Shown here piece by piece: positions 3,271 to 34,500 of a DNA stretch of 64,000 bases. Made by a program: the position numbers and the translations under genes. Numbering within the stretch: position 1 is the stretch's first letter; every line of letters starts with the position of its first letter. This stretch comes from Thermoguttaceae bacterium. Its GTDB lineage: Bacteria; Planctomycetota; Planctomycetia; Pirellulales; Thermoguttaceae. The stretch covers positions 62,001 to 126,000 of the forward strand of contig JAFQXE010000003.1 of assembly GCA_017407125.1 (NCBI GenBank), read 5' to 3'. The notes under the pieces are model-generated. The model ran no database searches. It was not told the DNA's origin and saw only the letters and a list, made by a program, of their open reading frames with translations.

Positions 3271-3365
3271 GGGGAGTAAGTTGCGAGTTGCGAGTTACGA
3301 GTTGCGAGAGGATTTAGTGAAGCGCTTGCGTTTCTCGCTACTCGCTACTCGCCACTCGCAACTTG
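3271..3365. repeat. Heptad inverted repeat, GTTGCGA type
   Basis: Left arm of GTTGCGA/GTTACGA units (about 3279-3311), a short centre containing AAGCGCTTGCG, and a right arm of CTCGCTA/CTCGCCA units (about 3333-3364). The right arm encodes the last residues and the stop codon of aroB. Confidence 0.85.
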
Positions 3366-4445
3366 TAAAAATTCTAAAATCTGATTCTCATCGACGTTCT
3401 TAACCAGCTCGCCGGAACCAATTTTATCCGGCAGGACAAAATTGATGTGCCCGTTGGCGGTCTTTTTGTCGTGAAGCATGATTTGAACGGTTTTTTCCGG
3501 GGTCAAGCCGTCCGGCCAGGAAACGTCCATTCCCAACGCTTCGATAAGTCGATTGTGACGGAGAACCGTTTCCTCGTCGACGCGACCGAGATACTGGGCG
3601 AACCGGATGGCGCGCGTCATGCCGACGGAAACCGCTTCGCCGTGGAGCTTGCCTTCAAAGCGTTCAAAGGTTTCGATTGCGTGTCCGAAGGTGTGCCCAT
3701 AATTGAGCAGGGCGCGGCGGCCGGAGATTTCTTTTTCGTCTTGAGAGACGACGTCCGCTTTGATCAGACAGCATCGATAGACGATTTCTGCCAGGACGTT
3801 GACGTCGCGCTGCAAAATGGCGTCGACATGCGATTCCAGATACCGGAAAAAGGACTCGTCCAGAATAACGCCGTACTTGACGACTTCCGCCATTCCCGCT
3901 AGATACTGACGGTTGTTGAGCGTCCGCAGTGTGTCGATGTCAATCACAACGCCCTGAGGCTGATAAAACGTCCCAACGACGTTTTTACCGTATTCCAAAT
4001 CAATCGCGGTTTTACCGCCGACGGAGCTGTCGACCTGAGCCAAAAGCGTGGTCGGGAACTGCCAGAATCGAACGCCTCGCATGTACGTAGACGCGACGAA
4101 GCCCGCCAAATCGCCGACGACGCCTCCGCCGATAGCGCAGACTACCGTCTTCCGATCGCAGCCGCCTTCCAGCATCCGGCTCCAAATCTGTTCCGCCATA
4201 TCAAGGCATTTGCTGTCCTCGCCGGCGGGAATGACAGCCAGTTCCGTTTCCCAGACTTGAGCGATTGTCTCTGCCAGAGCGTCTCCGTAAAGCGTTTCGA
4301 CGTTGTCGTCGGTTACAACAAAGACCTGAGACGGCGCGCCGTTTTGACGAATGTACTCAACCGCGTTTGGCAGCAACCCCGTCCCGATAAAAATCGGATA
4401 CGATCGCTCCCCCAGTTCAACAGTAAGAGTTTTAATTTCTTGCAT
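3345..4445 (-). CDS. aroB: 3-dehydroquinate synthase
   Basis: Converts DAHP to 3-dehydroquinate, the second shikimate-pathway step, using NAD+ and a divalent metal. The NAD-binding GGGVVGDLAGF is at about 106-116, followed by PTTLLAQVDSSVGGKT at about 131-146. The metal ligands are expected in AEVVKYG (Glu), NYGHTFGHAIE (His) and HGEAVS (His), all present. I place the start at ATG 4445. A GTG at 4463 would add MYNINI, but that stretch is the AT-rich TATAATATTAATATT, which looks like promoter or spacer. The final residues QVASGE and the TAG stop are encoded by the heptad repeat, so the C-terminus has probably been rewritten by it. The rest of the fold is complete (366 aa). Confidence 0.95.
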   Translation of the reverse strand: MQEIKTLTVELGERSYPIFIGTGLLPNAVEYIRQNGAPSQVFVVTDDNVETLYGDALAETIAQVWETELAVIPAGEDSKCLDMAEQIWSRMLEGGCDRKTVVCAIGGGVVGDLAGFVASTYMRGVRFWQFPTTLLAQVDSSVGGKTAIDLEYGKNVVGTFYQPQGVVIDIDTLRTLNNRQYLAGMAEVVKYGVILDESFFRYLESHVDAILQRDVNVLAEIVYRCCLIKADVVSQDEKEISGRRALLNYGHTFGHAIETFERFEGKLHGEAVSVGMTRAIRFAQYLGRVDEETVLRHNRLIEALGMDVSWPDGLTPEKTVQIMLHDKKTANGHINFVLPDKIGSGELVKNVDENQILEFLQVASGE

Positions 4446-4469
4446 AATATTAATATTATACACAGAAAC

Positions 4470-4557
4470 GGGGAATAGGGAATAGGGAGTAGGGAATAGT
4501 AATTCGCCTACGGCGAATTTAAAAACTACTCCCTATTCCCCACTTCCTACTCCCTAA
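4470..4557. repeat. Heptad inverted repeat, GGGAATA type with palindromic core
   Basis: Type example of the element. Purine arm 4470-4499 (GGGAATA, GGGAGTA units), palindromic core AATTCGCC-TAC-GGCGAATT at 4501-4519, pyrimidine arm 4525-4556 (CCCTATT, CCCCACT, TCCTACT units). As RNA it would fold into one long hairpin. It lies between aroB and the small lipoprotein, both on the minus strand. Confidence 0.9.
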
Positions 4558-6319: not shown

Positions 6320-6360
6320 TTAATTCGGAATGCAGAATGCGGAATTAGGAATTACGCAAG
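6320..6360. repeat. Heptad arm, GGAATTA/CGGAATG type
   Basis: Units of the AATTCGG, AATGCGG, AATTAGG type end in ACGCAAGCGC. It lies just upstream of the gltA Shine-Dalgarno sequence, in the presumed gltA leader. Confidence 0.75.
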
Positions 6361-6387
6361 CGCCTCACAAAAACGTATCATCTATAC

Positions 6388-6420
6388 GAAAAAATCCCTC
6401 ATAGCCATGACTACAAGGGA
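6388..6420 (-). terminator. Intrinsic terminator of rpsR
   Basis: On the minus strand TCCCT (6416-6420) pairs with AGGGA (6395-6399), with an inner TAG/CTA pairing, followed by six T. It is about 150 nt after the rpsR stop, with a complete heptad hairpin in between. Confidence 0.65.
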
Positions 6421-6476
6421 ATGTACTTGCATATTTCAAGAGCGCTCAGGCAGAGATAATATCTGTCTGATAAATT

Positions 6477-6566
6477 AATTCGGAATGCGTAATACAGAAT
6501 TAGAAATTATCATTGTGGAACGCTTTGCGTAATTCCGCATTCCGAATTCCTAATTCCGAATTACCT
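6477..6566. repeat. Heptad inverted repeat, GGAATTA type
   Basis: Left arm AATTCGG/AATGCGT/AATACAG units (6477-6508), centre containing AACGCTTTGCGT, right arm CCGCATT/CCGAATT/CCTAATT units to 6566. It ends 7 bp from the rpsR stop codon. Confidence 0.85.
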
Positions 6567-6572
6567 AAAGTC

Positions 6573-8597: not shown

Positions 8598-9014
8598 ATG
8601 ACTTGCACAATTTACAATCACGCTCTTAACCGGGAAATGGATCGTCTGTTTGACAACCTTCTGGAACGAACCGGTATGATTCAGGGCGATCGTTACGCTT
8701 CCATTCCCGTTTGCATTTGGGAAGAACCCGATCGATACTGCATTGAACTGGACTTGCCGGGCGTTAAAAAAGAAGATATTCAAGTGTCCGTTCAGAAGGG
8801 CATGCTCCGCATTATCGCAGAACGTCATTCAGAAGAAGTCGAAAACCGCAAATGCTGGCGTGACGAACGCCTTTACGAGAAGTTCGAACGCACGTTTACG
8901 CTGCCGGAATCCGTCGAAACAGAAAACGTCGACGCGGAATTTGTCAACGGCGTTCTGATTCTCTATCTGAAGAAAAAACCGGAATCGAATCCGACCCCGG
9001 TGCAAATTAAATAG
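8598..9014 (+). CDS. Small heat-shock protein, Hsp20/alpha-crystallin family
   Basis: An ATP-independent holdase that binds unfolding proteins in the cytoplasm. The 138-aa protein has the alpha-crystallin domain from about residue 35 (VCIWEEPDRYCIELDLPGVK) to 130, ending in the conserved NGVLILYLKK (G-x-L pattern). The C-terminal tail PTPVQIK carries a V-x-I instead of the usual I-x-I. Shine-Dalgarno AAGGAG lies 7 nt before ATG. Both sides are flanked by copies of the same repeat element, and its TAG stop coincides with the start of copy B. Confidence 0.93.
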   Translation: MTCTIYNHALNREMDRLFDNLLERTGMIQGDRYASIPVCIWEEPDRYCIELDLPGVKKEDIQVSVQKGMLRIIAERHSEEVENRKCWRDERLYEKFERTFTLPESVETENVDAEFVNGVLILYLKKKPESNPTPVQIK

Positions 9015-9171
9015 GGAGCGTCGAATTATTGGAAGGCGGTAACGAAGCGACCAACGGGAGCGGAGTTACGCAGTTCGCCGAAGGCGAACCCTAAAAATGA
9101 ACCTGATATTAAGTTCGCCTAACGGCGAATGCGTAATTCCGTTCGCTTCGCGAACTCCATTACCGCCTTTC
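9012..9171. repeat. Flanking element, copy B
   Basis: Same structure and orientation as copy A: TAGGGAGCG at the hsp20 stop, GGAAGGCGGTAACGAAGCGAC from 9031, inner palindromes GTTCGCC-GAA-GGCGAAC and GTTCGCCTAACGGCGAAT, and the inverted end CCATTACCGCCTTTC at 9171. The loop between the inner palindromes differs from copy A. Confidence 0.85.
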
Positions 9172-9180
9172 ATCCACTTG

Positions 9181-9996
9181 TTAATCAAACAGGTAGTTGT
9201 ATTTCCCCGGCGTCATGAGGTCGAACTTGACCTGGCGGACGAATTCCTTGCAGCCGGCTTGACGCTGAATTTCAATCAGCGCGCCGATCTGTTCCTGAGA
9301 AACGTAGGCGGCGATGCCGGCGAGTTTCTTTTCCAGCAGTTCTTCCGAAACGGTCGTACGCATGTCAGGCGGGGTAAGGAAATCGCTGTAGGTGGCGTAC
9401 TCGTACAGAACGGGGAAGTCTTCCAGCGGAGCGCCCAGTTCCGGCCAGATGTTGCCCGTCGCGTGGAAGACGCTGATAATCATCTCGTTGTGAGCGGTGC
9501 GGTGATCCGGGTGAATGTCGGTGCAGGACGGCAGGAAGATTCTCGTCGGTCGAACCAGACGCAGCAGCGCGGTGTAGGAGTTCTGCAAGCCGGTTGCGCC
9601 GCTGATAACCGTTGGGCCGGGCTGGTCAGTAAAGAAATGCCCGGTGAACTGATCGACGCCGCTGTCGTGGAATCCGAGGAAATGCAGATGATCCTGTTCC
9701 AAGCCCATGGCGGAGAACGACGCTTCCGCTTCCTGCTGACGAATGGCGGCAATGCAGTTGCGATGTTCCGGACGGCAATATCCGCTCTCGCCGTTGGTTG
9801 TAATGGCGGCGTGAACGTTGATGCCGTCGTTGAGAGCCGCAAGGAACGTCAGACCGGCGCCGAGAATGATGTCGTCGTCATGCGGTGCGAGGAAAAGCCA
9901 CGTTTCCTTCTCGTCTTTCCAGTCAACCCAAACGTCTGCCGGGTTCTCGGATGTAATAACCTGTTTGTCTTCTGTCAGTCTTTGGTAAATTGTCAT
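9181..9996 (-). CDS. PIG-L/LmbE family N-acetylglucosaminyl deacetylase
   Basis: A 271-aa zinc-dependent deacetylase of the PIG-L/LmbE fold. The metal and catalytic motif appears as APHDDDIILG (about 34-43; family AHPDDE) and the second ligand as HPDH in CTDIHPDHRTAHNE. The family removes acetyl groups from GlcNAc-type sugars on small-molecule or glycolipid substrates; the substrate here is unknown. It is convergent with hsp20. The ATG at 9996 follows C-rich heptads of the CTTACCA/CTAACCA type on its own strand, with no Shine-Dalgarno sequence. Confidence 0.85.
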   Translation of the reverse strand: MTIYQRLTEDKQVITSENPADVWVDWKDEKETWLFLAPHDDDIILGAGLTFLAALNDGINVHAAITTNGESGYCRPEHRNCIAAIRQQEAEASFSAMGLEQDHLHFLGFHDSGVDQFTGHFFTDQPGPTVISGATGLQNSYTALLRLVRPTRIFLPSCTDIHPDHRTAHNEMIISVFHATGNIWPELGAPLEDFPVLYEYATYSDFLTPPDMRTTVSEELLEKKLAGIAAYVSQEQIGALIEIQRQAGCKEFVRQVKFDLMTPGKYNYLFD

Positions 9997-10006
9997 GATA
10001 GTTAAG

Positions 10007-10067
10007 TAGTATAAAGTGGTTAGTGGTAAGTAAGCTTCTAGCTTCTAGCCTCTAGCTTTTAGCTTGT
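10007..10067. repeat. Left heptad arm around the four-helix-bundle gene
   Basis: GTGGTTA/GTGGTAA units pass into GCTTCTA/GCCTCTA/GCTTTTA units. The inverted partner is at 10440-10567, with the four-helix-bundle gene between them. Confidence 0.8.
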
Positions 10068-10078
10068 CGATTGTAGTT

Positions 10079-10432
10079 CTAATGGTTAACAGTTGAAATA
10101 AAAGAACGAAGCATTTTACTTACTTCATTACTTAAGGAAAAAGCAGTTTGAAGCTTTTCGCTCGGAATTAATCCAATCTGTTGACATATCAATAACTGTG
10201 TTTCAAGTTCAGCGTTTGATCCTTGTGCAACGGAAAGAAAATAAAGAAACTCTTTCTCTGATTTTCGGAAATTACCTTCTGAGATGTTAGAAGGAATTGA
10301 AACGGCAGCCCTTCTCATTTGATCGGATAAACCATACGTTTCTTCTTTTGGAAGCAGCTTTACCAATCGGTAAATTTCAATAACCAAAAGCATTGCTTTC
10401 TGCCAAACAATTAAATCCTTATGATCCTTCAT
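10079..10432 (-). CDS. Four-helix-bundle protein (S23 / 23S rRNA intervening-sequence / Avd-like family)
   Basis: The 117-aa protein has the family's two signatures, DLIVWQKAM near the N-terminus and YGLSDQMRRAAVSIPSNISEG in the middle, and is predicted all-helical. Members occur as ORFs inside 23S rRNA intervening sequences and as Avd accessory proteins of diversity-generating retroelements. They are small basic bundles thought to bind nucleic acid. Here there is no rRNA and no reverse transcriptase nearby. Instead the gene lies between two inverted heptad arms (10007-10067 and 10440-10567), the same layout as an rRNA intervening sequence, whose ORF is enclosed by a stem. It may be the protein partner of the heptad elements, which is my inference. 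Confidence 0.88.
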   Translation of the reverse strand: MKDHKDLIVWQKAMLLVIEIYRLVKLLPKEETYGLSDQMRRAAVSIPSNISEGNFRKSEKEFLYFLSVAQGSNAELETQLLICQQIGLIPSEKLQTAFSLSNEVSKMLRSFISTVNH

Positions 10433-10439
10433 TTTCTAT

Positions 10440-10567
10440 CGTTCTATTTAGTAATAGCTAGGTAAGCTAAAGCTAACTATTACTTGGATGTATTTTGTTC
10501 CTGGATGAGCGTTTAAAGCTGGAAACAAAAACAATAAGCTAACAGCTAGTAGCTAGTAGCTAAAAGC
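10440..10567. repeat. Right heptad arm around the four-helix-bundle gene
   Basis: Contains a small hairpin GTAATAGCT...AGCTAACTATTAC (10451-10482), then GTTTAAAGCTGG and heptads AGCTAAC/AGCTAGT/AGCTAAA to 10567. It is inverted to the GCTTCTA units at 10034-10067 and supplies the last codons and stop of hydF. Confidence 0.8.
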
Positions 10568-11855
10568 TGTTAAATGGCTTCAGCGCCCGCTTAAACAGCC
10601 CGAGACAATACGCGATTGTCATGCCGTAGTTGGTAATTGGGACGTTTTGGCGTTTACAGTGTAAAATACGTGACAAAACCGCCTTGCGGTTGGTCATGCA
10701 CGCTCCGCAATGAATAACCAGTTTATAGGCGGACAAATCCTCCGGGAAATCCTCGCCCTGGACGTGCTCGAAAACGAGATCGCCGCCAACGCGCTTGCGA
10801 ATTAAGTTTGGTATTTTAACGCGTCCGATGTCGTCGCCGATGGGGTGGTGCGAACAGCTTTCTGCAATCAGAATTCTGTCGCCCGGCTTGAGCGTTTCGA
10901 TTGTCTTCGCGCCGTCGGCAAACGCCTCTAAATTCCCTTTGAATCGGGCGAAAAGAACCGAAAAACCGGTCATCGGGACGTCTTCCGGAACGAGTTTGGA
11001 AACGGACGCAAACGCCTGCGAGTCCGTTACAACCAGTTTCGGCTTGACCTTTAAATTATTGAGTGCGTATTCCAGCTGAGATTCTTTGACAACGACGCAG
11101 CAGCAGGCGTTATCCAGTAAATCGCGAATCGTCTGCACCTGCGGGAGAATAATTCTCCCTTTGGGAGCTTCCTTGTCAATCGGGACGACCAAGACAACCA
11201 CGTCGTTTTGTTCAACCATGTCGCCCAGCAGGGACGGCGTGTTGATCCATTCCTCCGGCGCCGCAAGGAGAATCGCCTGACGAACGCTTGCCAGCGACTT
11301 TGCAGCCGTTTCAGGAACCAGCGTCGTTTTGACAACCTGCCGAACCATCGGAAAGATCATAAGCTCGGAAACCAGCTCGGCGTCCGGCTCGGCGACGTCG
11401 CATTTATTAAATACGACGACAACCGGCGTGTTGCGGCGGGAGAACTCGTACACCAGCGACTGCTCGAATTCCGTCCATTCGCCGGCGGCGGCGACGACAA
11501 TCGCCAGTTCCGTCCTGTCGAACAGCTTGCGAGTCTTCTCGATTCGCATCTGCCCTAACGCGCCCTGGTCGTCTACGCCGGCGGTGTCGATAAACACGAC
11601 TGGACCCAGCGGCAGAAACTCCATGGTCTTCTCGACCGGGTCTGTCGTCGTGCCCGCAACGGGCGAGACAATCGAGACGTCCTGACGCGTCATGCAGTTG
11701 ATCAAACTGCTCTTGCCTGCGTTGCGGCGTCCGAAAATCCCAATATGAAGACGCAGAGACTTAACCGTAAGCAGCTGCTGACTTTGCGAAAAACTCGCGT
11801 CTCCCGGTTTGTCTATATTATTGTTAGCGTCTTGAGGCAAATTCTCGCTGTTCAT
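10560..11855 (-). CDS. hydF: [FeFe]-hydrogenase maturation GTPase HydF
   Basis: HydF is the scaffold on which the 2Fe subcluster of the H-cluster is assembled by HydE and HydG before transfer to the hydrogenase. The 431-aa product has the P-loop GRRNAGKS (42-49), GTTTDP, DTAG and NKCD, and the [4Fe-4S] signature C334-x-H336 ... H382-C383-x-x-C386, matching the family pattern CxHx(n)HCxxC. I start at ATG 11855, preceded by CAGGAG, because 61 more upstream codons would only overlap rsfS. It follows rsfS by 34 bp, so the two are probably cotranscribed. No hydE, hydG or hydrogenase gene is in the window. The C-terminal NSF and the TAG stop come from the AGCTTTTAG heptads. Confidence 0.93.
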   Translation of the reverse strand: MNSENLPQDANNNIDKPGDASFSQSQQLLTVKSLRLHIGIFGRRNAGKSSLINCMTRQDVSIVSPVAGTTTDPVEKTMEFLPLGPVVFIDTAGVDDQGALGQMRIEKTRKLFDRTELAIVVAAAGEWTEFEQSLVYEFSRRNTPVVVVFNKCDVAEPDAELVSELMIFPMVRQVVKTTLVPETAAKSLASVRQAILLAAPEEWINTPSLLGDMVEQNDVVVLVVPIDKEAPKGRIILPQVQTIRDLLDNACCCVVVKESQLEYALNNLKVKPKLVVTDSQAFASVSKLVPEDVPMTGFSVLFARFKGNLEAFADGAKTIETLKPGDRILIAESCSHHPIGDDIGRVKIPNLIRKRVGGDLVFEHVQGEDFPEDLSAYKLVIHCGACMTNRKAVLSRILHCKRQNVPITNYGMTIAYCLGLFKRALKPFNSF

Positions 11856-11889
11856 ATCGGACTCCTGACTGTTGAACGCGCTGAGATTG

Positions 11890-12321
11890 TTATTCTGGAA
11901 TGAAATCGACTTTCGGGGCGGCTGCCCAGAGTTCTTCCAGACGGAAATGCTCGCGGGCTTCGTCGACAAACAGGTGGACGACGACGTCGCCGTAGTCCAG
12001 CAGAATCCAGCGGCTGTCCTGATAGCCTTCGATTCCAAGGCGTCTATCGTTCATTTCCTTCTCGAAAACGCGGTCGATTTCTTCCGACATGGCGTGGAGC
12101 TGACGTCGGCTGGAGCCGGTCGCAATAACAAAGTAGTCAAACGCTGTCGACAGTTCTCGCATATCCAAAATTACAACATCGCGGCCGCGGTTGTCGGAGC
12201 AGATTTGAGCAGCCATTTTGGCTCTGTCCAAAGCCGTCGCGTCTCGCGGAAGAATGCGCTGTTCCGGGTTCAAAACGTCTTCAGTCTGATTCTCTTGGTT
12301 GTTAACTTGTTCTTCTGACAT
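11890..12321 (-). CDS. rsfS: Ribosome silencing factor RsfS
   Basis: A DUF143-family protein that binds uL14 and blocks subunit joining when nutrients are scarce. The 143-aa product has the core DVVILDMRELSTAFDYFVIA, TGSSRRQL, and WILLDYGDVVVHLFVDEAR followed by LEELW. The ATG at 12321 has AGGA about 10 nt upstream; a TTG at 12348 is possible but less likely. An N-terminal extension of about 35 residues, rich in Asn/Glu/Gln, precedes the domain. It is first in a two-gene operon with hydF. The usual neighbour nadD is absent. Confidence 0.92.
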   Translation of the reverse strand: MSEEQVNNQENQTEDVLNPEQRILPRDATALDRAKMAAQICSDNRGRDVVILDMRELSTAFDYFVIATGSSRRQLHAMSEEIDRVFEKEMNDRRLGIEGYQDSRWILLDYGDVVVHLFVDEAREHFRLEELWAAAPKVDFIPE

Positions 12322-12599: not shown

Positions 12600-13826
12600 A
12601 TGTTTCAGCGAAATGCATGGGCAAGCATAATGGCGTTGTGCGTCTGCTCATTGGCGCTTTGTATTTCTCAGGCAAGCGCTCAGGAAAAAGTTTTAAAACA
12701 ATACTACGGAAACGGCGTTCACGCCTATTATTCCGGAAATTATGTCGAAGCGTTTGACTTGCTCAGCAAACCAATCGACGCTAAAATCGAAGACCCCCGT
12801 CCGTATTACTTCCGCGGTTTCGCTTTGATGGAACTTGGACGTCCAGAACAGGCGGAAAAGGATTTCAAAGCTGGGGCAGAACTGGAACTCAAAGACACCA
12901 CAGGTCGTTTTCCTGTCAATTTTGCTCTGGAACGCTGCCAGGGGAAAACTCGAATTGCATTGGAAAAAGCTCGCAATGAAGTTCAGTTAGCCGCTTTCCA
13001 GCGTCGTGCCAAATACAGCGCCGCTATTTATAATACTCGTCTGGAAGATCAAAAAGCTACGCTCATTCCAGAAGATCTTGATACGTCTGGCAGTACGCTT
13101 GAATTCGACGACTCTGACTCATTAATCAATGATTCTGATAACGGAAGTTCATTGTTGGACGAAGACGGCAACAACAAAACTAATGATTCGGCTGACAGTG
13201 ACAACCTTTTTGACGACGAAGGCAAAACTGATGAACCGGCTGACGGCGACAATCTCTTTGACGACGAAGGCAAAACTGATGAACCGGCTGACGGCGACAA
13301 TCTCTTTGACGACGCTGCAGACGAACCGGCGGGCAACGACGCTGCGGACCCGTTTGGCGCTGACGACGCTGCAGACGAACCGGCAGGCAACGACAACGCT
13401 GACCCGTTTGGCGCTGACGATGCGGCAGACGAACCGGCAGGCAACGACGACGCAGACCCGTTTGGCGCTGACGATGCGGCAGACGAACCGGCAGGCAACG
13501 ACGACGCAGACCCGTTTGGCGCTGACGATGCAGCAGACGAACCCGCCGCTGACGACGCAAAGCCCGCCGACGACGCGGCCGATGACGCTGGCAACGCTGA
13601 TGACGCAGCCGCTGACGACGATTCCGATCCGTTCGCAGAGGAAACTCCAGAAGAAACAAAAGATGCTGAACCGCTCAAAAACGCCAATTTGGACGATGAT
13701 GACGCTGCGGACGCAGCTGACGACGCCGATGCTGCTGATGATGCGGCTGACGACGCGGCGGCTGACGACGCTGCCGATGACGCTGGCAATGCTGATGAAG
13801 CTGAAGAAGATCCCTTTGACTTCTGA
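12600..13826 (+). CDS. Secreted protein with TPR-like domain and acidic tandem-repeat tail
   Basis: The 408-aa protein starts with a signal peptide (cleavage probably after SQASA at residue 27). A TPR-like region follows (about 32-100, YYGNGVHAYYSGNYVEAFDLL and a second unit around YYFRGFALMELGRPEQAEKDF). From about residue 160 the chain is an acidic low-complexity tail. It holds 16-aa units (DNLFDDEGKTDEPADG) and then four 18-aa units (DDAADEPAGNDxADPFGA), ending DPFDF. Codons are repeated too: 48-bp units at 13200-13307 and 54-bp units at 13308-13523. The tail contains almost no basic residues and no hydrophobic core, so it is probably disordered and may bind Ca2+ or cationic surfaces. Family unknown. 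GGAG precedes ATG; a strong terminator follows. Confidence 0.8.
   Translation: MFQRNAWASIMALCVCSLALCISQASAQEKVLKQYYGNGVHAYYSGNYVEAFDLLSKPIDAKIEDPRPYYFRGFALMELGRPEQAEKDFKAGAELELKDTTGRFPVNFALERCQGKTRIALEKARNEVQLAAFQRRAKYSAAIYNTRLEDQKATLIPEDLDTSGSTLEFDDSDSLINDSDNGSSLLDEDGNNKTNDSADSDNLFDDEGKTDEPADGDNLFDDEGKTDEPADGDNLFDDAADEPAGNDAADPFGADDAADEPAGNDNADPFGADDAADEPAGNDDADPFGADDAADEPAGNDDADPFGADDAADEPAADDAKPADDAADDAGNADDAAADDDSDPFAEETPEETKDAEPLKNANLDDDDAADAADDADAADDAADDAAADDAADDAGNADEAEEDPFDF
13200..13536 (+). repeat. In-frame coding tandem repeats (48-bp then 54-bp units)
   Basis: Two full 48-bp units begin at 13200 and 13248 with a partial third at 13296. 54-bp units begin at 13308, 13362, 13416 and 13470, with a partial fifth at 13524. 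All lie within the acidic-protein gene, and the third and fourth are nearly identical, which makes copy-number change likely. Confidence 0.85.
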
Positions 13827-25687: not shown

Positions 25688-26161
25688 TTCCTTACAAATA
25701 TTTTTAAGCCGCAAAGAACGCATAGTTTTTAAAACTTCGCGAACTTTGCGAACTTCGCGTGAGATTTTCTTCGGCGGGCGAAGACGCCCGCGAACCAGTT
25801 GTTCGAACGGACTTTCCGCGTTCTCAAGTTTTTCGGAAGCTTCCGCCGCAAAGCGCTCCTCTCGAGCCGAACGCTTTGCGTAATTGCTAATTGCTCATTG
25901 ATAATTGCTAATTAATTTTCCCCAATCTTTTTCTCCCCCCGGTACTTTTCAATCGTAAAAAAAGGTCTATAATATATATTCATAAAAATCGGTGGGAGGG
26001 GATATCCCTCTAACCGGGTTTATTCAATGGTTAGCCCCCGGAACGATTCGGCGGCTGGTATATTATTTTTACTGGTTCTTGACCGCAGCCGCGTTTGGAA
26101 GAGTTTATTCCAAACCGGAGAACGTCAAGAGCATATAATTCCATTTAGAGGTAATCAGACT
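25688..26161. other. Remainder of the gap before the acetyl-CoA synthetase gene, with -10 box and leader hairpin
   Basis: 25700-25780 carries degenerate 9-mers of the CGCAAAGAA/CGCGAACTT type; 25865-25917 carries AATTGCT heptads after AACGCTTTGCGT. A TATAAT (25968-25973) lacks a good -35. Just downstream, CGGT (25990-25993) and AGGG (25997-26000) pair with CCCT (26006-26009) and ACCG (26013-26016), forming a leader hairpin. No gene is supported. Confidence 0.55.
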
Positions 26162-28295: not shown

Positions 28296-28364
28296 TGAGG
28301 CATTAGGCAAGAGGCAGTAGGCAGTAGGCAGTAGTGAAATTTCTCTACTGCCTGCTGCCTATCT
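28296..28364. repeat. Heptad inverted repeat, GGCAGTA type
   Basis: GGCATTA, GGCAAGA and three GGCAGTA units (28300-28336), short loop, then CTACTGC/CTGCTGC/CTATC. It follows the acetyl-CoA synthetase stop at once and could act as its transcript end. Confidence 0.85.
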
Positions 28365-29232: not shown

Positions 29233-29338
29233 CAGGCAGTAGACTTTGAGGGAATAGGGAATAGGAAATAGGGAATAGTTTTTCGCCTGCGGCGAATTTA
29301 AAATCTATTCCCTACTACCTACTTCCTATTCCCTATCT
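29233..29338. repeat. Heptad inverted repeat, GGGAATA type with palindromic core
   Basis: One GGCAGTA unit, purine arm GGGAATA/GGAAATA (29248-29278), core TTCGCCTGCGGCGAA (29282-29296), pyrimidine arm CTATTCC/CTACTAC/CTACTTC to 29336. Confidence 0.85.
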
Positions 29339-30035
29339 TCTTTTCGACAGCAGCTTTTCTAAATATATAACTAATCCGGATTCGCGCCGATTATTCTTCG
29401 GAGGGTCGACGTCCTCGCCTGCCAATGGAAAACCGCCCTGCAATCTTTCAAATACGCCGCCAAAGATTTTAGCCGCAAAGAACGCAAAGATCGCAAAGAA
29501 ATGAAAGGCGGTAACGTAGCGAACAAGGCGAGCCGGGGTGCGTAAGCCCCCGGAAAAATTCTCACGCAAAGTACGCGAAGTTCGCAAAGTTATTTAGGCG
29601 AGCCGGGAACGTCAGTTCCCGGGTGTAGAACCGCATAGCGGTTCAATGTTTCTAGCCGTGGGTGAAACCCACGGAAGAAAGAAAAACAATAATAAAAAAA
29701 TCGTCAAACACTCTTTTTCTCTTGCTCCTTTACGGGGCAAGAGAAAAAGATACTGCGACGATTGCAAACGTTTCGCAGCGTGCATAACAAAACGACGCAG
29801 CCGAAAACCTTCCCCGGATGGACTCCGCCCTCGGAGTCCAACTTGACGGCTACGCCGTCAAGGAAATAACGGAAGCCTCCAAAAACCATTGAACGCGGAA
29901 AACCCGTCTGACCTGCTGGATCGCGGCTGTGTCAGCCGCCAAAGAATTTTAACCACAAAGAACACAAAGAACACAAAGAAACAATCGGGACTAATACGTT
30001 TTTATCGGGCGCTCCCGCCTCCCTTCTAAATCCTC
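29339..30035. other. Palindrome-dense intergenic region without genes
   Basis: About 700 bp with no supportable gene. It holds CGCAAAGAA 9-mers (29470-29500), GGCGGTAACGTAGCG similar to the hsp20 flanking element (about 29506), CCGGGAACGTCAGTTCCCGG (29604-29623), a copy of the double-hairpin element (29626-29674) and a perfect 14-bp hairpin (29712-29725 with 29737-29750, TCTTTTTCTCTTGC arm). GGACTCCG/CGGAGTCC (29820-29839), CTTGACGGC/GCCGTCAAG (29842-29862) and three ACAAAGAAC 9-mers near 29955 complete it. Confidence 0.75.
29626..29674. repeat. Double-hairpin element, copy 1
   Basis: TAGAACCGCATAGCGGTTC, a spacer CAATGTTTCTAG, then CCGTGGGT-GAA-ACCCACGG. Other copies are at 32561-32611, 36826-36876 and 38474-38527. 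Orientation is opposite to copies 2 and 3. Confidence 0.85.
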
Positions 30036-30158: not shown

Positions 30159-31934
30159 ATGAACGTCATTCATCGCGTTTTGAGCGTTTTGTTTGTTTTG
30201 GGAATTTGTCTTGCCGGGGCGAGTTGCTCAGCAGAGAATTCCGACAGTCAGTCCAAGGCGAAAAGATTAATAGTTACGATATTTGGTCAGGAAAACGTAG
30301 ATCGTTTTGAACAGATGTTCGAAACCAACAAGTTTGATTTTGATTACTGCGACGAAGACAACCGCTGCGTCCTTCACTATGCCGCTTTGTTGGGAAACAT
30401 AAACCGGGTTCAAGAGCTTGTAAAACAGGGCGCGGACTTAAATACAAAAGATGACATTGGCAGGACGGTTCTGTATTACGCCGCCCGAAGCGGGAATTTG
30501 GAACTGGTCAAATGGCTGGTTGAAAAAGGGCTGGACGTCAACGTAAAAGACAACGGCGATAAAACAGTTTTACATTCAGCCGCCCAAAGCGGAAATCTGG
30601 AACTGGTCAAATGGCTGGTAGAAAAAGGGCTGGACGTCAACGTAAAAGACGATGATAGCAATCCGGTCTTGCATTACGCCGTCCAAAGCGGGAATCTGGA
30701 ACTGGTCAGGTGGCTTGTAGAACAGGGCGCTGACGTCAAGGCAAAAAACAGATACGGAATAACAATTATATTTCATACAGTCGATTTGTTTTACGCGGAC
30801 GATTCAGAGTATCTGGAAATGATTGACTGGTTGGTTAAACAGGGCGTTGATGTAAATAGTAAATGCGAATCAGGAAGTACAGCCCTGGTTTCTTGCAGCA
30901 TAAGTGGCAATCTGAAATTGGTTCAAAAATTGATTGAACATGGAGCAGACGTCAATGCAAAAACTAATGACGGATTTACAGCCTTGCATTTTGCCGTCCT
31001 AGATGGGAATTGGGAACTGGTTAAGTGGCTCGTTGAACACGGCGCGGACGTCAATATTAAAAATAATGATGGCGTTACTATTTTGCAATCAACCGCGCAG
31101 AGTGGGAACATGGAGCTGGTTCAATGGCTGGTTGAACGCGGCGCTGAAGTCAAAATAAAAGATAATGATGGAGAAACTGCCTTGCATTTTGCCGCTCTAA
31201 GCGGGAATGTGGAACTGGTTGAGTGGCTGGTTAAACAGGGATTGGACGTCAATGCAAAAACTAATGACGGAAATACAGCCTTGCATTTTGCCGCTCGATA
31301 TGGGAATCTGGAACTGGTTCAATGGCTGGTTAAACAGGGTTTGGACGTAAAAGATATAAACAAAAATAGCGAAACGGCTTTGCATTTTGCCGCCCGATGG
31401 GATAATCTGGAACTGGTGCAATGGCTGGTTGAACAAGGGACTGGAATCAAAATAAAAGACAATGATGGAGAAACCGCCTTGCATTCTGCCGCCCGATATG
31501 GGAATCTGGAACTGGTTCAATGGTTGGTTAAAAAGGGTTTGAATGTAAAAGATAAAAACAAAAATGGAGAAACGGCATTGCATTTTGCCGCTCAATGTGG
31601 GGATCTGGAACTGGTCAAATGGCTGATTGAACAGGGTTTGGACGTCAATGCAAAAGACGCTCATGGCGTTACAGTATTACATTACGCTGTTGGACACGGA
31701 TCTCTGGAAATGGTTAAGGTATTGGTTGAACACGGCGCGGACGTTAATGCAAAAGACACTCATGGAGATACGCCCTTGCATTCTGCCGTCCAATGCGATA
31801 ATTTGGAAATGGTCAAATGGCTGGTCGAACACGGCGCCGACATTAACGCAAAAGACAATTATGGAAGTACCGTTTTGGATGAAGCAATGGATAAGGAATT
31901 GGTCAAATGGCTCAAAGAGCATGGCGCAAAATAA
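30159..31934 (+). CDS. Exported ankyrin-repeat protein
   Basis: The 591-aa protein starts with a signal peptide (MNVIHRVLSVLFVLGICLAG) followed by ASC-SAEN, a weak lipobox or SPase I site. From about residue 80 it consists of some fifteen ankyrin repeats of 33 aa, with the consensus ELVKWLVEQGADVNAKDNDG, TALHFAA and GNLELV. Repeats differ in the DNA mostly by single codons, so the array has expanded by recent duplication. The array forms an elongated binding surface; the target is unknown. The ATG at 30159 is preferred over a TTG at 30087 because the signal peptide starts there. It may form a pair with the small gene downstream. Confidence 0.9.
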   Translation: MNVIHRVLSVLFVLGICLAGASCSAENSDSQSKAKRLIVTIFGQENVDRFEQMFETNKFDFDYCDEDNRCVLHYAALLGNINRVQELVKQGADLNTKDDIGRTVLYYAARSGNLELVKWLVEKGLDVNVKDNGDKTVLHSAAQSGNLELVKWLVEKGLDVNVKDDDSNPVLHYAVQSGNLELVRWLVEQGADVKAKNRYGITIIFHTVDLFYADDSEYLEMIDWLVKQGVDVNSKCESGSTALVSCSISGNLKLVQKLIEHGADVNAKTNDGFTALHFAVLDGNWELVKWLVEHGADVNIKNNDGVTILQSTAQSGNMELVQWLVERGAEVKIKDNDGETALHFAALSGNVELVEWLVKQGLDVNAKTNDGNTALHFAARYGNLELVQWLVKQGLDVKDINKNSETALHFAARWDNLELVQWLVEQGTGIKIKDNDGETALHSAARYGNLELVQWLVKKGLNVKDKNKNGETALHFAAQCGDLELVKWLIEQGLDVNAKDAHGVTVLHYAVGHGSLEMVKVLVEHGADVNAKDTHGDTPLHSAVQCDNLEMVKWLVEHGADINAKDNYGSTVLDEAMDKELVKWLKEHGAK

Positions 31935-32979: not shown

Positions 32980-33069
32980 GATATAATCCGTAGGTAAAAT
33001 ATCTGTTTAGTCTATTACAATACCCTATCTTAGCGTTTTTTGATAATTAGAGCAAGAGGGAATTTTTAA

Positions 33070-33155
33070 TTAGGAATTAGGAATTCGGAATGCGGAATTA
33101 CGCAAAGCGCTGCTCAAAAACAACTCCTCACTCCTCACTCCTAATTCCTAACTCT
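33070..33155. repeat. Heptad element with mixed arms (GGAATTA left, CTCCTCA right)
   Basis: AATTAGG/AATTCGG/AATGCGG units, centre ACGCAAAGCGCT, then CTCCTCA/CTCCTCA/CTCCTAA/TTCCTAA units. As at 18961-19056 the arms are of different families. Confidence 0.85.
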
Positions 33156-33163
33156 ATGGACTA

Positions 33164-34121: not shown

Positions 34122-34128
34122 CAATGTT

Positions 34129-34500
34129 ATAGCTTCTAGCTCCTAGCCTCTAGCTTCTAGCTTTTCCTATTAGCGTCTAACTTAAAATCTATCAGCTTAG
34201 AGTTACAAACATCCAAGCTAATGGCTAGAAGCTAATAGCTAACAGCTTATCCTGTTCTAGCTCCTAGCCTCTAGCTTCTAGCTTTTCCTGTTAGCGTCTA
34301 ACTTAAAATCTATCAACTTAGAGTTACAAGCATCCAAGCTAATGGCTAGAAGCTAATAGCTAACAGCTTATTCTGTTCTAGCTCCTAGCCTCTAGCTTCT
34401 AGCTTTTCCTGTTTACGTCTAACTTAAAATCTATCAGCTTAGAGTTACAAACATCCAAGCTAATGGCTAGAAGCTAGCAGCTAACAGCTTATCCAATCAG
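34129..34500. repeat. Three tandem copies of a 121-bp hairpin unit (GCTTCTA heptads)
   Basis: AGCTCCTAGCC recurs at 34138, 34259 and 34380, a spacing of exactly 121 bp. Each unit has CTAGCTC/CTAGCCT/CTAGCTT heptads, a conserved centre (GCGTCTAACTTAAAATCTAT) and inverted AGCTAAT/AGCTAGA/AGCTAAC heptads, so each folds on itself. This fills the 382-bp gap between convergent genes; no terminator or gene is visible. Confidence 0.92.

Follow-up and report, generated by a model that had tools for sequence, protein, structure and literature searches.

Inverted heptad arms and an S23-family gene in a Thermoguttaceae bacterium form a probable mobile unit outside ribosomal RNA

The stretch of DNA analysed here, 64 kb at its full length (the window), carries an S23-family gene enclosed by two inverted arrays of 7-nt repeats (heptads). 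Comparison of S23 loci across genomes revealed that gene and arms travel together, are gained and lost as a unit and leave derivatives behind. We consider it probable that the S23 gene, together with the heptad arm on either side of it, constitutes one mobile unit of about 540 bp.

Results

The S23 gene and its arms

The minus strand of the window harbors an ORF of 117 aa (10079..10432) that encodes an S23/IVP four-helix-bundle protein. Profile searches matched this protein to PF05635 with 134.3 bits (cut-off 33.8) and to TIGR02436 with 128.4 bits (cut-off 24), both above the curated cut-offs, and it is a genuine member of the S23/IVP family. The AlphaFold model (pLDDT 94.5) is a four-helix bundle whose top PDB match was 2GSC (TM 0.89), followed by 2RLD and then by Avd proteins. 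Alignment with the Avd structures 4DWL and 8UB7 gave TM values of 0.79-0.83 at 16% identity, and the Avd profiles scored below their cut-offs (bAvd, 29.3 bits with a cut-off of 40; DivGenRetAVD, 28.7 bits with a cut-off of 80). We considered the protein as Avd, the accessory protein of diversity-generating retroelements, and rejected this assignment because the cut-offs of the Avd models were missed. Pfam analysis of the neighbours (hydF, PIG-L, hsp20, rsfS and NTP transferase) detected no reverse transcriptase. A search of the genome found this S23 copy only. Alignment of 30 S23 sequences showed six invariant residues (Q38, R41, S45, N49, E52 and E75), five of which are spaced along a single helix (33-54) of the predicted structure, which suggests that this side of the helix may be a functional face. 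The gene is kept by purifying selection, Ka/Ks being 0.05-0.25 in most pairs, and no S23 matches were found in phages. To our knowledge, no catalytic activity has been assigned to the S23 family.

The left arm, (AGCTTCT)n on the plus strand at about 10029..10065 (the 3' arm relative to S23), is composed of AGCTTCT, AGCCTCT and AGCTTTT heptads and was identified by TRF (score 52 at 10033-10065), by the period scan and by arm pairing. The right arm (10532..10572; the 5' arm relative to S23) carries AGCTAAC, AGCTAGT and AGCTAAA heptads, i.e. TAGCTAC/TAGCTGT on the minus strand. The two arms are inverted TAGCNNN heptads, complementary with a local score of 41 over 33 columns, and pair as the stem that closes the predicted fold (RNA z -6.3; DNA z -4.4). 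A generic inverted-repeat search at this locus failed to detect the pair because the pairing is imperfect. RNA and DNA folds both predicted an additional small hairpin with a 12-bp stem (10450..10484) in the gap that separates the S23 start codon from the 5' arm. Thus, the S23/Avd-type gene between inverted heptad arms of the preliminary description stands, with an ORF matching PF05635 at 134 bits and complementary arms. Its left arm needs correction: the GCTTCTA-type heptads are part of the arm, whereas the adjoining GTGGTTA-type stretch (10007..10028) lies outside the element and is junction sequence, since it is found at the same junction in the sister species G055, which has no S23 there.

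The element is located between two co-directional minus-strand genes, hydF upstream (HydF GTPase; 10560..12038; TIGR03918, 544.8 bits) and a PIG-L deacetylase gene downstream (9181..9996; PF02585, 73.1 bits). The stop codon of HydF (TAG; minus strand, 10560..10562) is provided by the first heptad of the element, and in the sister species HydF terminates with other codons. Within the genus, S23 occupies this junction in the present genome; in G055 it is taken by a hairpin that is built from other heptads and lacks an ORF, and in both G054 and G056 by a different repeat, despite PIG-L proteins that are 99% identical. None of the three sister sites compared was a plain unfilled junction; all carried other hairpins. 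The repeat occupying the junction of G054 and G056 belongs to a second interspersed hairpin family (GGCGGTAACGAAGCGAC...GCAGTTCGCCGAAGGCGAAC) that also occurs in the window at 9014-9180 and around 8331. No Rfam matches and no rRNA were found in the 64 kb.

Heptad arms accompany S23 genes in many lineages

To this locus we compared 124 S23 genes from genomes of the same family and from Bacteroidales, Clostridia, Nitrospirota, Acidobacteria, Cyanobacteria, Hydrogenedentes and others, a sample that includes many drafts or bins and partly non-independent loci. With complementary arms called at a score of at least 30, arms surrounded 92/124 S23 genes and 19/618 other ORFs. Among matched controls, i.e. 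short ORFs of the same loci with gaps on either side, taken from a simple ORF caller, only 6/97 had arms (Fisher p 2e-26), which agrees with the expectation that S23 genes lie inside heptad inverted repeats more often than other genes do. When arms were paired across different loci only 3.6% matched, indicating that each locus has its own heptad. The arm period in the 92 elements was mostly 7 (68 elements), followed by 14 (10), 8 (8) and 9 (3), and the heptad copy number differed between loci. The association is strong but not universal. About a quarter of the 124 genes had no arms above threshold, and in a phylum-wide sample scored in the same way 10 of 20 rows passed (one locus being counted twice), several of the failing rows showing shorter matching heptads. 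Enclosure by heptads therefore holds for 92/124 genes and not for every S23 gene.

Genomes with and without S23 differed in their heptads. In 20 same-family genomes carrying S23 we counted 23 period-7 arrays in 302 kb vs none in 307 kb from 20 same-family genomes lacking it (first contig only, up to 20 kb each), so that none of the latter was heptad-rich, while other periods were at background in both sets. The arrays were unevenly distributed in the S23-positive set, 15 of the 23 coming from the genus of the window and 11 of the 20 stretches having none. The similarity of arms also followed that of the protein: among 93 elements, alike arms were found in 0.1-0.3% of pairs below 50% S23 identity, in 9.5% at 60-75% and in 57% at 75% or more, the closest pairs including some from the same orthologous site. 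The arm sequence tracks S23 protein identity, across genera and orders.

ORF-less hairpins

Scanning the window for tandem periods revealed 83 strong positions of period 7, none of any other period from 3 to 14 and two of period 15. Of its 33 arms, 32 lie outside ORFs of at least 150 aa, which cover 82.5% of the sequence, and an inverted partner no more than 700 bp away exists for 22 of the 33. A search of the 4.4-Mb genome with the S23 element's arm pattern gave 226 matches, and with the reversed control pattern 0. Together, the period-7 excess, the placement outside ORFs and these pattern counts exclude chance as the source of the window heptads. In the genus of the window, 33/44 ORF-less arms match an arm of one among its nine S23 elements, while random sets of nine elements from elsewhere matched 10% on average and 0/1000 such sets reached 33/44. 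The genus richest in ORF-less hairpins has only 1-4 S23 genes per genome. The many ORF-less hairpins of the genome look like stripped-down offspring of the S23 element; no S23 remnants are left in those of the window.

Hairpins cognate to S23 elements of sister genomes are found at 4464..4556 (TAGGGAA family, element L093 in G056), 6321..6567 (GGAATTC/GGAATGC family, L089 in G055) and 28296..28361 (TAGGCAG family, L091 in G054), and one at 33060..33156 has arms cognate to L089 and L092. Further ORF-less heptad hairpins are located at 3273..3369 (GAGTTGC) and 29245..29338 (TAGGGAA family). Three tandem 121-bp copies of an ORF-less hairpin of the TAGCTTC family, to which the arms of the window's S23 element also belong (34126..34494), represent local amplification of the hairpin unit.

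The window also contains repeats of other lengths. Tandem 9-mers (AACTTCGCG, CGCAAAGAA and the like; 25733-25759, 29474-29500, 29565-29591 and 29954-29984) may belong to the same kind of repeat as the heptads, as a class of longer period. A long array of 99-nt repeats (30475-31865) appears ankyrin-like by eye, and tandem repeats of 48 and 54 nt (13175-13584) are coding, within the gene of an acidic alanine-aspartate-rich protein.

Filled and unfilled sites

Cyanobacterial plasmids carry S23 genes between cas10 and cmr3, cas6 and cas4, and nrdB and nrdA, as well as in secretion operons, with heptads often filling the gaps around them. At site A, three plasmids at 97% identity have only a stop codon, 13 bp and a start codon, two others are filled with arms and S23, and in a third form (L183) the left arm and a truncated S23 remain. 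Site B holds an arms-only hairpin (L185). At site C three bases separate the genes in the unfilled form vs a full element in the filled one, the flanks being more diverged. Sites D1 and D2 are adjacent junctions of one operon, occupied by different S23 elements in different plasmids. Presence and absence at near-identical sites, as seen with a DNA transposon or MITE, was thus found at A, D1 and D2. Short target repeats were visible at two sites (GTAA at A and TTCTA at D1), too few to establish a target site duplication. Copies within one genome share arm and gene and not their flanks (L116/L125, 89% nt identity; L104/L134, 88%), and L059 and L060 share the element alone (83%, ending at the arms), although these come from bins of different phyla, where a binning error is possible. 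The truncated and arms-only forms L183 and L185, with the 33/44 arm matches and the 226 genomic matches, fit the earlier suggestion that ORF-less copies behave like non-autonomous derivatives; the filled and unfilled sites, the 92 enclosed genes and the tracking of protein by arms bear out its companion, that the heptad element in its complete form comprises S23 and inverted arms. Profile searches detected no recognised transposase or recombinase in the window element, S23 being its sole gene.

Elements L170 (2995-3363) and L178 (2983-3339) are situated in type I-D and type III-B CRISPR operons of cyanobacterial plasmids; a 23S rRNA IVP is named in a figure legend of PMC10910872.

Placement at gene ends and inside genes

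The 5' arm starts between -40 and +20 nt from the upstream stop codon in 66/84 elements with a co-directional upstream ORF, and this stop is TAG in 39/70. Such a pattern would be expected from true targeting as well as from selection against damage. S23 was co-directional with its upstream neighbour at 94/114 loci vs 233/339 controls (p 0.005, with crude ORF calling). The genes upstream of L104, L116 and L134, in two genomes, end alike (YxASR), a hint that elements have repeatedly inserted at the same kind of junction.

At ten loci, about six of them independent cases, S23 is entirely contained in a host ORF of 475-1272 aa. In all ten the host reading frame, +2 relative to S23, remains open, so that splicing out is not needed. 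The hosts encode a type III methylase (L052, L053, L060 and L108), HmaB/DUF1156 (L050, L057, L058 and L068), an Eco57I/DrmMI-like methylase (L143) and valyl-tRNA synthetase (valS of L109, 1398-5213), the last with an in-frame insertion of an S23 element. Congeners of L109 have valS without the insert, and no second full-length valS was found in the 87%-complete genome of L109. Judged by the known architecture of ValRS and the domain matches, the insert lies in a loop of the editing domain. The cross-phylum flanks of L052, L053 and L060 were considered as rRNA and rejected: they have no match to E. coli rRNA and are methylase genes. With operon junctions and the interior of protein genes among its sites, the intervening-sequence idea extends beyond rRNA further than had been proposed.

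Arm mismatches and the substrate

Selection on a stem formed in the sense RNA predicts more G.U than A.C mismatches between arms. Counting mismatches on the sense strand revealed the opposite, 108 of A.C type vs 63 of G.U type (p 7e-4), with A.C above G.U in 41 elements and the reverse in 18. This bias disfavours a sense-RNA stem kept by selection, although mutational asymmetry may also produce it; DNA or the antisense strand is the likelier substrate. The same wobble test is uninformative for ORF-less hairpins because an inverted repeat is identical from both strands, and arm 'polarity' was dropped as evidence given that an inverted repeat looks alike from either strand.

Discussion

The data partly support the interpretation given in the preliminary description and leave room for a broader proposal, which we offer tentatively and to which we give somewhat less than an even chance: S23 proteins may provide mobility to a so far unrecognised class of transposable elements that crosses phyla and has no known transposase. 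In such a class every S23 would recognise the heptad of its own element, would copy the hairpin or insert it at stop codons and would drive gene-less families, with rRNA IVSs and the TAACTGA and STRR heptamers as outposts. In our main reading of the mobile unit, the S23 protein, which is related to Avd of retroelements, would recognise its family's own repeated heptads on a single-stranded nucleic acid, probably DNA, and would be needed in trans for copying or moving the hairpin, with the ORF-less hairpins living as parasites of its activity. TAG-type heptads, whose period is not divisible by three, would put stops in all frames, so that landing at gene ends would be nearly harmless. The IVSs of 23S rRNA would be elements of this kind that inserted into rRNA and are excised from it by RNase III. 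Against this reading stand the S23 genes with no arms above threshold (about a quarter, and half of the phylum-wide sample), the occupied junctions of all three sister species, the low number of S23 genes in the genus richest in ORF-less hairpins and a protein family with no catalytic activity known to us.

Mobility could instead be supplied by the host. A Y1 transposase (HUH, RAYT/IS200-like) might move the hairpins in trans, as with REP/REPIN, with S23 as accessory hairpin-binding cargo. Y1_Tnp is found in 34/53 genomes with S23 vs 15/66 without (p 6e-6, kinship ignored), the present genome has one Y1 gene, at C46, outside the S23 element, the element is itself a hairpin, and its arm mismatches are compatible with a hairpin formed by a single DNA strand. 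We regard this explanation as a serious rival but an unlikely one: 19 S23-positive genomes, including the heptad-rich sister G055, have no Y1 match at the cut-off used, in a set with incomplete drafts, and Y1 and S23 may both simply mark genomes rich in mobile elements. It seems quite unlikely that the element acts as RNA, i.e. that the sense transcript folds, RNase III excises it, S23 binds it and a reverse transcriptase acting in trans copies it back. The ORF, stem and heptamers shared with rRNA IVSs (PMC4990558), the resemblance of S23 to Avd, which is part of a reverse transcriptase complex, the co-directional upstream genes (94/114 vs 233/339) and the RNA fold (z -6.3) would all suit such a cycle, but the sense-strand mismatches are of A.C type (108 vs 63), in-gene copies keep the host frame open and make splicing dispensable, and copies L168 and L169 are antisense to both neighbours.

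It is also conceivable, though very unlikely, that the hairpins are a feature of the host, generated by slippage and palindrome correction, and that S23 is a separate selfish gene homing in on them. While the G055 hairpin with other heptads at the same junction and the variable copy number between loci are compatible with this, heptads are missing from genomes without S23, S23-less plasmid sites are mostly without arms too, and arm sequence and S23 protein vary together between genera and orders. Coincidence, by which an S23 gene happened to fall in heptad-rich intergenic space, might be suspected in a window that is itself heptad-rich; the matched controls (6/97), the cross-locus arm pairs (3.6%) and the unfilled sites refute it, and its probability is practically negligible.

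A mobile S23 element links three matters: the unexplained origin of 23S rRNA IVSs, the role of the widespread S23/IVP family and the orphan intergenic heptamers. The idea that IVSs are mobile becomes testable outside rRNA, with filled and unfilled plasmid sites at hand, and DNA may prove to be movable without any of the known transposases. Where S23 genes appear in operons for CRISPR, secretion or restriction-modification, they have probably been inserted and are not functional partners, and those in CRISPR operons could mislead guilt-by-association surveys. Annotators should be aware that methylase or valS genes may carry in-frame insertions of such elements.

Comparison with known systems

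Inteins and self-splicing introns reside inside conserved genes and are tolerated there, as in-gene S23 elements are. They differ in that S23 is encoded in another frame than the host, whose frame is read through, and that no splicing domain was seen. Avd of diversity-generating retroelements has the same four-helix fold as S23, but identity is 16% and S23 falls below the cut-offs of the Avd models. Cyanobacterial STRRs are comparable intergenic heptamer repeats.

Intergenic TAACTGA heptamers have been described in Beggiatoaceae, Cyanobacteria and Bacteroidetes with no evident mechanism of spread, in a paper that does not mention S23 or intervening sequences (PMC4679880). They resemble the present arrays in being intergenic tandem heptamers that vary in steps of 7 nt, often near start codons, with a scattered phylogeny, but are described as direct repeats. 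We found no link between IVS heptamers and intergenic heptamers in the open-access literature searched. REPIN/RAYT (PMC3116915) and MITEs share with S23 elements the arrangement of one or a few masters that carry the gene, next to many intergenic copies that are short, palindromic and non-autonomous. They are distinguished by the arms, which here are family-specific tandem heptads, and by the gene, S23 not being a transposase; the window element falls outside REPIN/RAYT, its gene being S23 and not PF01797.

The closest likeness is to the IVSs of 23S rRNA, which also hold an S23/PF05635 ORF within complementary arms. In Coxiella burnetii, tandem GACAGAT heptamers that vary between strains lie upstream of the S23p ORF, the stem has 28 bp and partial deletion of the ORF in a strain is possible; the same paper also mentions the notion, without proof so far, of IVSs as mobile elements (PMC4990558). 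The present elements differ from IVSs in being multi-copy per genome with large ORF-less families, and none of the S23 loci that were screened against E. coli 23S and 16S rRNA gave a match. Because the window element is located between hydF and the PIG-L gene and not in rRNA, we file it as IVS-like and not as a 23S rRNA IVS, and the rRNA IVSs in turn look like the rRNA-borne members of the S23-heptad elements.
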